DNA of 64,000 nucleotides. Source: Thermoplasmata archaeon (GTDB lineage: Archaea; Thermoplasmatota; Thermoplasmata; Lutacidiplasmatales; UBA184). Shown here one piece after another: positions 55,446 to 58,372 of this stretch; position 1 is the first letter of the stretch; each line of letters starts with the position of its first letter. Where the stretch lies: NCBI GenBank assembly GCA_027315165.1, contig DAHUYN010000008.1, positions 1-64,000 on the forward strand, in the 5' to 3' direction. The position numbers and the translations under genes are program-made. Under the pieces are notes generated by a model. That model did no database searches. It was not told the DNA's origin and saw only the letters and a list, made by a program, of their open reading frames with translations.

Positions 55446-55772
55446 CTACGCCCGGGAGAGCCAGCTGGCGAGCGGTCGAAGGCTCTCCCAGAGCTGCCGG
55501 CCCTTCGGCGTGAGCGTGTAGGCCAGCACCGGCGGTCTCGGCTCCGGGGCCGTCACGCGACGCACGAGGCGGGAGCGCTCGAGCGCCCTCAGCGTCGACG
55601 TCAGCGTCGCCGGGCTCACGCCGTGGAGGCAACGCTGGATCGGCCCGAACCGCAGCGTGCCGTAGCGGCCGAGGAGCGACACGACGCAGACGGCCCACTT
55701 CTTGCCGACGACATCGATGAGCCCGATCGGGGGGCACGGGCACTCGAGCGCCTCGGGGCAGCAGACGGCCAC
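55446..55772 (-). CDS. HxlR-type winged-helix regulator, probable arsenic sensor
   Basis: 108 residues, winged helix of the HxlR family (IGLIDVVGKKWAVCVVSLL, LRFGPIQRCLHGVSPATLTSTLRALERSRLVRR). Most HxlR proteins have one N-terminal Cys; here C4, C5, C11 and C13 sit together before the fold, with C29 at its start, a soft-metal-like pocket. It is read divergently from the ars operon, and the intergenic palindrome at 55802-55820 is well placed to be its site. Control by As(III) is inference. GTG 55772 start. Confidence 0.8.
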   Translation of the reverse strand: MAVCCPEALECPCPPIGLIDVVGKKWAVCVVSLLGRYGTLRFGPIQRCLHGVSPATLTSTLRALERSRLVRRVTAPEPRPPVLAYTLTPKGRQLWESLRPLASWLSRA

Positions 55773-55792
55773 TACGCGCGCACGTAGCGGGG

Positions 55793-55800
55793 GTTTATGA
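55793..55800 (+). promoter_or_regulatory. TATA-like promoter of the ars operon
   Basis: GTTTATGA, 31-38 nt upstream of ATG 55831, immediately before the palindrome; predicted transcription start near 55820-55825. Confidence 0.5.
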
Positions 55801-55801
55801 C

Positions 55802-55820
55802 CACTTCAGGTATTGAAGTG
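55802..55820. promoter_or_regulatory. Palindromic operator CACTTCA-N5-TGAAGTG in the ars divergent gap
   Basis: Perfect 7-bp arms with a 5-nt spacer, between the HxlR gene (start 55772) and the micropeptide (start 55831). On the plus side it begins 1 nt after the TATA box; on the minus side it covers the A/T-rich stretch best placed to be the regulator's own TATA box. A dimeric winged-helix protein bound here would block both promoters. Confidence 0.7.
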
Positions 55821-55830
55821 CCGAGGGACC

Positions 55831-55917
55831 ATGACCGACTGCTGCGCGAAGCCGTGCTGCGAAGCCCCCGCGTGCGAACCTGGCTGCTGCCCCGACTGCC
55901 CCAAGGACTGCTGTTGA
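55831..55917 (+). CDS. 28-residue ten-cysteine micropeptide opening the ars operon
   Basis: Too short for usual gene callers. ATG 55831 to TGA 55915-55917 encodes 28 residues, ten of them Cys (positions 4, 5, 9, 10, 15, 19, 20, 23, 27, 28), otherwise Pro, Glu, Asp, Lys, Ala and Gly, with no aromatic or long aliphatic residue. CC pairs and CxxC/CxxxC spacings are metallothionein-like. It follows the operator/TATA at the right distance, and its TGA overlaps the TTG start of arsC as TTGA, so translation is coupled. Likely an arsenite- or metal-chelating peptide or an ArsC partner; a cysteine-sensing leader peptide is the alternative. Recognised only from this sequence. Confidence 0.75.
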   Translation: MTDCCAKPCCEAPACEPGCCPDCPKDCC

Positions 55918-56360
55918 GGGGTGGGGGGACCGTACTCTTCGTCTGCGTCGAGAACGCCTGCCGCTCCCTGATGGCGGAGGCCCTGTTCAACGCCCGGGCG
56001 CCGCCGGCGTGGAGGGCCCGTAGCGCCGGCACCGAGCCCGCCCCGGGACCGAACCCGAGGACGGGGCCGATGCTCGAGGAGCTCGGCGTCGCGCTCCCGG
56101 ACCACCCGCCGCAGGCGATGACGGCGGAGCTCCTCGGCGAGGCGCAGGTCGTCGTCACGATGGGCTGCCTCGACTCGGACCGGTGCCCGGCGGTCCTCCT
56201 CGAGCGACGACCGCGCGACTGGGAGCTGCCCGATCCGGCGCGTCTCGACGACGCGGGGTTCCGCGCCGTCCGGGATGAGATCGCCCGGCGCGTGGCCGAG
56301 CTCCTCCGAGAGGTCGCCGGACCCCGGACGAGCTCGGGCGCGCCCGGAGCCCCCGTTTGA
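55914..56360 (+). CDS. arsC: Arsenate reductase ArsC (low-MW phosphatase fold)
   Basis: Reduces arsenate to arsenite. 148 residues from TTG 55914. The phosphatase loop C11-x5-R17 (CVENACRS) and relay cysteines C85 and C91 (TMGCLDSDRC) match thioredoxin-linked ArsC, and DWELPDPA carries the general-acid Asp region. The longer frame from ATG 55797 runs through the promoter and the micropeptide and is rejected. TTG overlaps the micropeptide stop, and its own stop overlaps the next TTG: two TTGA couplings in a row. Confidence 0.88.
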   Translation: MRGGGTVLFVCVENACRSLMAEALFNARAPPAWRARSAGTEPAPGPNPRTGPMLEELGVALPDHPPQAMTAELLGEAQVVVTMGCLDSDRCPAVLLERRPRDWELPDPARLDDAGFRAVRDEIARRVAELLREVAGPRTSSGAPGAPV

Positions 56361-57502
56361 GCGGCGGCCCGGGGTCGGCGTCCGGCCCGGCGCTCGGGCC
56401 GGGCGCGCCCGGCCGCCGCCTCGGACTGCTCGACAAGTACCTCACGGTCTGGATCCTCGCCGCGATGGCCGGCGGCGTCGGGCTCGGGTCGCTCGACCCC
56501 GGTCTCTCCTCGGGCCTCGCCCGGCTCTCGGTCGGGACGACGAACCTCCCGATCGCGGCCGGTCTCATCGTGATGATGTACCCGCCGCTGGCCCGGGTCC
56601 GCTACGGGCAGGTCGGTCGGCTCCTCCTCGACCGCCGCCTCCTCGGCCTCTCGCTGCTCCAGAACTGGGTCGTGGGCCCGGTCCTGATGTTCGCGCTCGC
56701 GCTCGTCTTCCTCCGCGGCGAGCCGGCGCTGCTGGCGGGCGTGGTCCTCATCGGGCTCGCCCGGTGCATCGCGATGGTGATCGTCTGGAACGACCTCGCC
56801 TGCGGCGACCGCGAGTACGCCGCGGGCCTTGTCGCGCTGAACTCGGTCTTCCAGGTGCTGTTCTTCTCGACGTACGCCTACGTGTTCCTCACGGTCCTCC
56901 CCCCGAGGCTCGGCCTCGCCGGGCTCGCCGTTTCCGTCTCCCCGGCGGACGTGGCGCTCAGCGTCGCCGTCTACCTCGGCATCCCGTTCCTCCTCGGCTT
57001 CCTCACGAGCACGCTCCTTCGACGCTCGCGCGGCTCGGAGTGGTACGACACGAGGTTCTCCCCGCGGGTGGCGCCGCTCGCGCTCGCCGCGCTCCTGTTC
57101 ACGATCGTCGTGATGTTCTCCCTCCGCGGCGGGGCGTTCCTTCGGCTGCCGCTCCAGGTCGTCGAGGTCGCGCTCCCGCTCGTCGTCTACTTCCTCCTGA
57201 TGTTCCTCGTCTCCCTCCTGCTGGCCCGCGCGGCCGGCGCGGGCTACGAGCGCGCGACGACGCTCTCGTTCACGGCGGCGAGCAACAACTTCGAGCTCGC
57301 CATCGCCGTCGCGGTCGGCGTGTTCGGCCTCGGCTCCGGCGAGGCGTTCGCCGCGGCGATCGGCCCGCTCGTCGAGGTGCCGGTGCTGCTCTCGCTCGTC
57401 CACGTGGCGCTCTGGCTCCGGCCGCGGCTCTTCCGAGCCTCCGCGATCGGTGAGGCACCCGTGGGACCGGCGTCGCCGGGGACGTCGCTCCGTCATCGAT
57501 GA
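56357..57502 (+). CDS. acr3: Arsenite efflux transporter ACR3
   Basis: Exports As(III). 381 residues with ten hydrophobic helices in the bile-acid/ACR3 fold. Signature Cys in GLARCIAMVIVWNDLACGD (helix 4), ALNSVFQVLFFS, and SFTAASNNFELAIAVAVGVFG (helix 9). The first ~22 residues are Gly/Pro/Ser-rich. TTG 56357 overlaps the arsC stop (TTGA). Follows ArsC in the natural order reductase-exporter. Confidence 0.94.
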   Translation: MSGGPGSASGPALGPGAPGRRLGLLDKYLTVWILAAMAGGVGLGSLDPGLSSGLARLSVGTTNLPIAAGLIVMMYPPLARVRYGQVGRLLLDRRLLGLSLLQNWVVGPVLMFALALVFLRGEPALLAGVVLIGLARCIAMVIVWNDLACGDREYAAGLVALNSVFQVLFFSTYAYVFLTVLPPRLGLAGLAVSVSPADVALSVAVYLGIPFLLGFLTSTLLRRSRGSEWYDTRFSPRVAPLALAALLFTIVVMFSLRGGAFLRLPLQVVEVALPLVVYFLLMFLVSLLLARAAGAGYERATTLSFTAASNNFELAIAVAVGVFGLGSGEAFAAAIGPLVEVPVLLSLVHVALWLRPRLFRASAIGEAPVGPASPGTSLRHR

Positions 57503-58372
57503 TCGGGGCCGGCACGGCCCCCCGAGGGGGTCGGGAGGACGCGAGCGTGGGAACGGCTGGCGGCGTCGTACGACGCCAAGCCGGGCGACACGGGAGACCT
57601 CTGGCACGGCTCCCTCATCGACCCGGGGCTCCTCGACGTCCTCGGGGAGGTGCGGCGCCTCGAGCTCCTCGACCTCGCGTGCGGCAACAGCTCCCTCAGC
57701 CGTCGGTTCGCTCGAGAGAGCGCGCGGGTTTCCGCCGTCGACGCGTCGGCACCGGTCGTCCGCCTCGCCCGCGCCCGGGAGCCGAAGGAGCCGCTCGGGA
57801 TCCGCTCTCTCGTCGGCGACGCGCGCCGGCTCGACCGGCTCGAGAGCGGGGGGTTCGACGTCGTCGTGAGCGACACGGCCCTGAGGGACATCCGCGACGC
57901 CGACCGCGCGGTCGGCGAGGTCGGGCGGGGGCTCCGGCCGTCCGGCCGGTTCGTCTTCTCGATCTGCCACCCGTGCTTTGACGTGAGGTCAAGGAGCGCC
58001 GGGGAGATCGAGTACCGCGCCTTCACGACCGTCGTCTCGCGCAAGGTCCGGCGCTACCGGGAGCCCTACGAGGAGCCGGCTTCGTGCAAGGTCGGCGACG
58101 GGGCGTTCCAGGAGTCCCCGGGCTTTCCCCGGCCCCTCTCGTGGTACGTCACCGCCCTCGGCGACGCCGGGCTCGTCGTCGAGCGGTTCGAGGCGCCGGC
58201 GCCGCGGCCCGAGAGGTTCGACGGCCGTCCCCAGGCGCCGTTCGTCGCCGAGGTGCCGCTCCACCGGGTCCTCGGGGGCCGTCGGCTCGCGGACGGAGCG
58301 GGCGGTCGCGCCGTCAGCGGCCGCGGCGCCCCGGGGCGCGCACGACGAGCACGGGACACGGCGCGTCGGTGA
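57503..58372 (+). CDS. SAM methyltransferase in the ars operon; start out of frame
   Basis: Class I methyltransferase. The core (LELLDLACGNSSLSRRF, VSAVDAS, FDVVVSDTALRDI, FVFSICHPCFD) is clear and is preceded in frame by WERLAASYDAKPGDTGDLW, a usual N-terminus. That frame is open from the acr3 stop but has no ATG/GTG/TTG before GTG 57650, which lies inside the domain. The ATG overlapping the acr3 stop (57499) is one base out of frame; loss of one C from the six-C run near 57518-57523 would join them. It lacks recognised ArsM arsenic-binding cysteines, so arsenite methylation is not claimed. Its 3' end overlaps the facing stress-protein gene by 59 nt. Confidence 0.75.
   Translation, partial: SGPARPPEGVGRTRAWERLAASYDAKPGDTGDLWHGSLIDPGLLDVLGEVRRLELLDLACGNSSLSRRFARESARVSAVDASAPVVRLARAREPKEPLGIRSLVGDARRLDRLESGGFDVVVSDTALRDIRDADRAVGEVGRGLRPSGRFVFSICHPCFDVRSRSAGEIEYRAFTTVVSRKVRRYREPYEEPASCKVGDGAFQESPGFPRPLSWYVTALGDAGLVVERFEAPAPRPERFDGRPQAPFVAEVPLHRVLGGRRLADGAGGRAVSGRGAPGRARRARDTARR

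Follow-up and report, generated by a model that had tools for sequence, protein, structure and literature searches.

A cysteine-rich micropeptide family encoded ahead of arsC in archaeal ars operons, a candidate metallothionein-like thiol sink

Small metallothioneins include SmtA/BmtA of bacteria and the fungal copper metallothioneins of ~25 residues, and ars operons can encode ArsD, an arsenic metallochaperone with vicinal cysteine pairs. The ars genes of Sinorhizobium meliloti run in the order arsR-aqpS-arsC. The AqpS channel of this organism is described in PMC4435449, and a different sort of cysteine-rich reading frame, the polycysteine leaderless short ORFs of mycobacteria (Canestrari et al. 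2020; PMC9031893), provides a precedent for a cysteine leader. In the opening of its abstract, PMC12093948 states that the ars operon has yielded no specific genes for sequestering arsenic inside the cell. Should the peptide described here bind As(III), its gene would be one for arsenic sequestration within an ars operon, and an archaeal one. A search of titles and abstract openings, with most subscription journals outside its scope, brought up among the papers listed no archaeal cysteine-rich peptide of this kind upstream of arsC, and a phrase search of similarly restricted scope found no archaeal metallothionein. Genes of micropeptide size tend to be skipped by annotation pipelines.

The window, by which we mean the whole 64,000-nucleotide stretch of DNA that was analysed, belongs to Ca. 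Lutacidiplasmatales, a lineage whose genomes from acidic soils are tabulated in PMC9287336; the main text of that paper holds no word beginning "arsen". At 55831-55917 on the forward strand the window encodes a cysteine-rich micropeptide of 28 residues, MTDCCAKPCCEAPACEPGCCPDCPKDCC, with ten cysteines at positions 4, 5, 9, 10, 15, 19, 20, 23, 27 and 28. Its TGA overlaps the TTG start of arsC at 55914 (TTGA), and arsC (55914-56360, forward strand), which encodes an arsenate reductase of the LMW-PTP type (LMWPc, Pfam E 3.6e-22), overlaps by its own stop the TTG start of the arsenite efflux pump gene acr3 (56357-57502, forward strand; TIGR00832, 408.4 bits against a cut-off of 282.8). The first-pass annotation had described a 28-residue, ten-cysteine ORF ahead of arsC with this stop/start overlap, and the sequence bears the description out. 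A scan of all six frames of the whole window for ORFs of 15-50 residues with at least 6 cysteines and at least 15% cysteine returned this peptide as the sole ORF of its type, listed at 34 residues as counted from an upstream TTG. After acr3 comes a class I methyltransferase gene (57650-58372); generic models match its product best and ArsM models weakly, and the product stays below the curated cut-off of every NCBIfam model among the 25 listed.

Upstream, a divergent gene (55446-55772, reverse strand) encodes an HxlR-type winged-helix regulator by Pfam, and the layout between it and the micropeptide is ACGTAG-N7-TTTATGA-CC-ACTTCAGGTATTGAAGT, where the N7 spacer runs one base into the TTTATGA box, sharing its initial T. 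The ACGTAG motif and the TATA-like TTTATGA, the latter a putative TATA box, form the upstream part of a conserved promoter block (55782-55800, forward strand); the near-palindromic operator ACTTCAGGTATTGAAGT, presumably the HxlR site, occupies 55803-55819, 11 nt before the ATG, and a Shine-Dalgarno-like GAGG stands at 55823-55826 on the forward strand, 8 nt before the ATG. Given the usual distance between TATA box and start in archaeal promoters, transcription would begin near 55820, ~10 nt before the micropeptide ATG, and for this reason the micropeptide would be the first product translated. The longer start available in the arsC frame, an ATG at 55797, falls within the TATA-like box and is unlikely to be transcribed.

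Is this ORF a peculiarity of one genome? ArsC matches at E <= 1e-10 numbered 79, in 65 of the 78 genomes of the window's genus, and joining two pieces of one broken gene left 78 loci. At 20 of these a cysteine-rich ORF ends at or just before arsC, and at 58 the peptide is absent. Across the 297,001 bases of the 78 loci, the start of such an ORF lies no more than 260 nt upstream of the arsC match in 20 cases; a single further ORF is located elsewhere, and it too follows the same operator. Profile searches added three copies, each accompanied by HxlR, operator, arsC and aquaporin: two from G473 (genus g165) and one from G382 (genus g25). A further two copies (G012 and G081) follow the operator but have no arsC immediately after them, so that the family comprises 25 members in three genera with a fixed layout. 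The TTA of the TATA-like box (TTG in G077) stands 36-42 nt, and the end of the operator 10-16 nt, upstream of the start codon in all 25 copies, and 19 of the 25 have a Shine-Dalgarno-like motif no more than 16 nt upstream. By manual count the stop overlaps the arsC start in 18 of the 23 arsC-linked copies, the five without overlap being G018, G079b, G018b, G473a and G473b. Conservation with synteny had been set beforehand as the test of the first-pass proposal; both are observed, and a gene for a cysteine-rich peptide is well supported. The micropeptide ORF is real and is not a product of chance.

The two solo copies differ in their surroundings. After that of G081 come a second operator and then arsM-arsC. 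That of G012 is short, with 5 cysteines and the ending CCDE, and by reading has no ars gene after it on its 3,977-base contig, arsC lying on another contig; this copy may be decaying. Among the peptide carriers, G018 and G076 belong to the window's genus. At one G018 locus (L105, contig C4) the arsC behind the cysteine-rich peptide is split into two overlapping pieces, with no transporter match found downstream of the broken gene; the same genome has an intact arsC elsewhere.

Searches beyond these loci returned few further matches. The micropeptide alone as query against 61 genomes recovered itself and weak matches, the best other having E 0.029; the ~700 nt around each of the two best weak matches, examined by eye, held nothing alike. 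Profiles of 6 and 14 rows outperformed the single peptide, and in 389 sampled genomes of the phylum the 14-row profile gave three matches at E <= 0.05, namely two family members and a weak one in G224 (0.03). Five stretches matched weakly by the 14-row profile in the family, two in G096 and one each in G467, G476 and G074, proved to be unrelated frames and were set aside. A motif scan of genome contigs, which misses members without the exact motif, the window's own included, gave 59 loci; the nine in Thermoplasmata or Euryarchaeota MAGs were all the micropeptide, and of the other 50, 40 had no in-frame start codon before the motif and 10 had a dissimilar ORF. One of these 10, on a Planctomycetota contig (JAHBXX010000011.1, near 5592; L131), is itself cysteine-rich, with 145 residues, 25 cysteines and the same CPPGCCxxCC motif. 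Viral contigs gave no match to a stringent nucleotide pattern for the motif, and plasmids none with the G036 peptide as query, so within these limited searches there is no sign of a mobile family. On the ArsC tree, which is poorly resolved, presence of the peptide changes 14 times; the tree leaves out G018b (arsC in two pieces) and, as too short, G100b, G015b, G087b, G008b, G015c, G086b, G011b, G025b and G091.

The 25 copies, picked partly by cysteine content, are 22-42 residues long with 5-15 cysteines (20-38%). Taken together they are 33% cysteine, with five aromatic residues and one histidine, and show the CC, CxC and CxxC spacing typical of metallothionein; the residues that recur between the cysteines are D-P, P-G and D/E. 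Two kinds of sequence can be told apart, the first, with most copies, having a C-terminal CDPxxCPPGCCDDCC-like motif and the second having 6-9 cysteines in a row (G010, G016, G082 and G081 among them). The window peptide (CEPGCCPDC) is related to the first kind but divergent. Although both profiles include it as a row, it scored E 0.03 with the six-row one and the 14-row one did not report it at E <= 1; position and layout count as much as sequence in assigning it to the family. The window peptide matched no Pfam family, and no ArsD domain, at E <= 1, nor any NCBIfam model at E <= 1; among 14 members searched against Pfam at E <= 10 only Keratin_B2_2 appeared (2 of 14, best E 0.0017), with no metallothionein; and PDB chains gave no match at E <= 10. 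The earlier remark that no named archaeal family resembles the peptide thus holds for Pfam, NCBIfam and PDB.

Codon variation indicates which frame is under selection. Across 14 copies, the CPPGCCxxC block has minor-base counts of 6, 9 and 38 at codon positions 1, 2 and 3, one of the third-position differences being the early stop of G012. Between 11 copies, counted over pairs that share ancestry and are thus dependent, synonymous and nonsynonymous codon differences number 154 and 110 in the cysteine frame, 59 and 224 in the arsC frame and 33 and 263 in the third frame, so that synonymous differences predominate in the cysteine frame only. Changes between the two cysteine codons are often synonymous leucine changes in the arsC frame, and for that reason cysteine codons alone do not decide between the frames; it is the codons for P, G, D and E that point to selection on the protein in the cysteine frame, a reading that the variation by codon position fits. 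These counts also bear on the view that the ORF arose by chance or is an N-terminal extension of ArsC, a leucine-rich reading of CTG repeats in the arsC frame. The arsC frame is indeed open across the ORF at 10 of 20 loci, the window included, but it is interrupted by a stop within the ORF at the other 10, the upstream ATG at 55797 sits inside the TATA-like box, and such ORFs are placed 20 upstream of arsC versus one elsewhere in 297 kb. With its 59/224 ratio and these stops, the extension in the arsC frame is rejected, and we regard this explanation as a whole as extremely improbable.

The full operator pattern occurs at 29 sites in 26 of the 78 genomes of the genus, and the reversed pattern, used as a control in the same genomes, at none. 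By reading of the loci the operator marks a regulon, its sites preceding the peptide, arsC or arsM-arsC: 17 are followed by peptide and arsC, two by the peptide alone, five by arsM (one of these, in G091, being a remnant and another, on G005 contig C60, assigned solely by an arsM match upstream of arsC) and five by arsC without a cysteine-rich peptide. In 389 sampled genomes of the phylum the operator was present in seven, all within the window's taxonomic family. At L064 (G081), L065 (G061) and L088 (G094) the gene behind the same operator is ArsM-like, with a CC-rich N-terminal stretch ahead of the methylase part. At L035 (G025), L016 (G011) and L094 (G075), a protein that we take to be of the AbrB type replaces the micropeptide or ArsM immediately before arsC, and the G025 version has a cysteine-rich N-terminus, CCGDDCCGAESSCCG.

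Some relatives hold a cysteine-poor ORF in the same slot, in G028 (2 cysteines), G021 (none), G084 (none) and more weakly G066 (none), and these ORFs could either be peptides that have decayed and are retained for coupling or indicate that coupling is the older role. They lend some substance to the idea that the short ORF serves solely as a translational coupler, delivering ribosomes to arsC whatever amino acids it encodes, since slot ORFs with few or no cysteines and with overlapping stop and start are found in G021, G028, G084 and perhaps G066. Against this stand the protein-level selection in the cysteine frame, the 20-38% cysteine of all 25 members (chosen for cysteine, however) and the fact that in G027, G013 and G019 arsC can start directly behind the operator without any such ORF. 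Coupling as the whole explanation seems to us improbable.

A stronger competitor is a cis-acting leader, in which ribosomes would slow at cysteine codons when cysteine is short, thiols having been consumed by As(III), and so alter the coupled translation of arsC. In every one of the 25 copies the peptide ORF comes first after the promoter, with a putative leader of ~10 nt, and in 23 it is in cis to arsC, where the stop so often lies over the arsC start; some copies have long cysteine runs, and these poly-Cys variants, with up to nine cysteine codons in a row, resemble known cysteine-sensing leaders such as the mycobacterial precedent (PMC9031893). The cysteine-poor ORFs in the slot likewise keep this possibility alive. 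The window peptide itself has CC pairs only. The leader reading is weakened by the two copies that have no arsC directly behind them (the short one of G012 and that of G081, before a second operator and arsM-arsC), by P, G, D and E codons that are conserved at the protein level in the motif group and that a counter of cysteine codons would have no need of, and by RNA folds that are no more stable than shuffles in the three sequences tested (z +1.68, +1.53 and +0.94), in which no attenuator structure was seen. Moreover, the genes downstream in the window are arsC and acr3, not cysteine genes. The first-pass annotation had named a cysteine-sensing leader as the main alternative; it keeps that place, on present evidence as an unlikely one.

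A further set of observations concerns the regulator. In the window and 33 relatives the divergent regulator of the ars operon is of the HxlR type, not ArsR. HxlR adjoins 22 of the 25 peptide copies, that is 20 of the 23 arsC-linked copies and both solo copies, and no HxlR match lies alongside the peptide in G030, G036 and G018. In the window protein the cysteines are an N-terminal CC doublet, a CPC pair and the cysteine of WAVC. Among the 34 loci at which an HxlR match could be read, a set that leaves out G473b, G030, G036 and G018, three cysteines, in CPC and WA[VMIL]C, are invariant in all 34, and the CC doublet is found at 15 of 20 peptide loci versus none of 14 others. These features mark HxlR here as a candidate sensor of arsenic or thiols, one for which a near-palindromic operator can be defined. 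They also raise the thought that the peptide might partner the sensor, taking metal from the regulator or giving metal to it and so setting the threshold of induction. Apart from the doublet, whose absence in G021 and G028, with their cysteine-poor ORFs, is in keeping with it, independent pairs on supported branches agree, a mean of 2.7 of 4 being concordant and 0.0 opposite. That test is, however, powerless (median p 0.25 for the supported pairs), five of the 20 peptide loci lack the doublet, and three peptide loci have no HxlR match adjoining. We think this partnership slightly less probable even than bare coupling.

How would arsenite leave the cell? Of the 23 arsC-linked copies, 20 are followed by an aquaporin (MIP; one was scanned with Pfam, E 7e-36, and the others were identified by tblastn), two by ACR3 (the window and G029) and one by neither within the stretch examined, so the ACR3 of the window is an exception among peptide loci. 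Operons with HxlR and no peptide have ACR3 in 7 of 11 and MIP in 3 of 11, with G028 as an additional case with MIP, and of the nine HxlR operons with ACR3, seven are without the peptide. The raw Fisher test for association of peptide and channel gives p 0.002 (17/3 vs 2/7), or 0.004 once G028 is taken out of the ArsM group, but the association is not taken as shown, because the ArsC tree is too unresolved to allow for kinship. The counts do not favour the earlier suggestion of a chelator that hands arsenite from ArsC to ACR3, given that 20 of 23 copies precede an aquaporin and seven of nine ACR3 operons are without the peptide. Over all 81 arsC loci (for example L093 and L070), an aquaporin follows arsC at 53, making this the common form, ACR3 at 16, and neither was found at 12. 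A passive channel cannot take the inside concentration below that outside, and we hypothesize that a thiol sink or a methylase would complement a passive aquaporin.

On balance, we consider it somewhat more probable than not that this gene is translated into a metallothionein-like thiol peptide, being repressed by a thiol-bearing HxlR and induced together with ArsC, and a chelator role of the micropeptide fits its composition, position and regulon. In this model, which is built from sequence, HxlR would repress the promoter until its thiols were modified by arsenic or by a soft metal acting as a mimic; the promoter would then open, and peptide and ArsC would be made from one message, read from overlapping stop and start codons. 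The vicinal and CxxC cysteines would hold As(III) coming from ArsC, or free soft metal, and would thereby guard protein thiols while As(III) left through the aquaporin in most relatives or through ACR3 in the window. The sequences themselves show the ORF and its conservation, the frame under selection, the block of promoter and operator, and the genes that come after the operator; translation of the ORF, binding and sensing by HxlR, metal binding and the role as a sink are what we infer here. A bolder proposal, which we put forward tentatively and hold to be quite possible short of probable, is that this is the first archaeal metallothionein-type family devoted to arsenic, a thiol sink that enables passive exit through an aquaporin, co-evolving with a cysteine-bearing HxlR repressor and occupying a modular slot before arsC that elsewhere in the genus holds ArsM or an AbrB-type protein. 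The 25 peptides with their 5-15 cysteines, the cysteine-poor ORFs in the slot and the swap of pump and channel form a natural series for a direct test.

Set beside the known systems, the micropeptide resembles metallothioneins in being tiny and about one-third cysteine, in its CC, CxC and CxxC spacing, in having few aromatic residues and in its apparently metal-responsive context; it differs from them in having no sequence match in Pfam, NCBIfam or PDB, in being archaeal, in lying in an ars operon and in that its binding is predicted. With the polycysteine ORFs of mycobacteria it shares shortness, richness in cysteine and its place as the first ORF of the operon, whereas its conserved residues other than cysteine, the two copies without arsC directly behind, the arsenic genes downstream and the Shine-Dalgarno-like motif in 19 of 25 copies set it apart. 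Like ArsD, it has vicinal cysteine pairs and is a member of an ars operon, but it has no Pfam match, about a quarter of the size of ArsD and, in the window, no ArsA gene between peptide and pump. The operons of most relatives are like that of S. meliloti in pairing arsC with an aquaglyceroporin as the exit, and unlike it in having HxlR rather than ArsR and the additional cysteine-rich peptide, while the window has ACR3.
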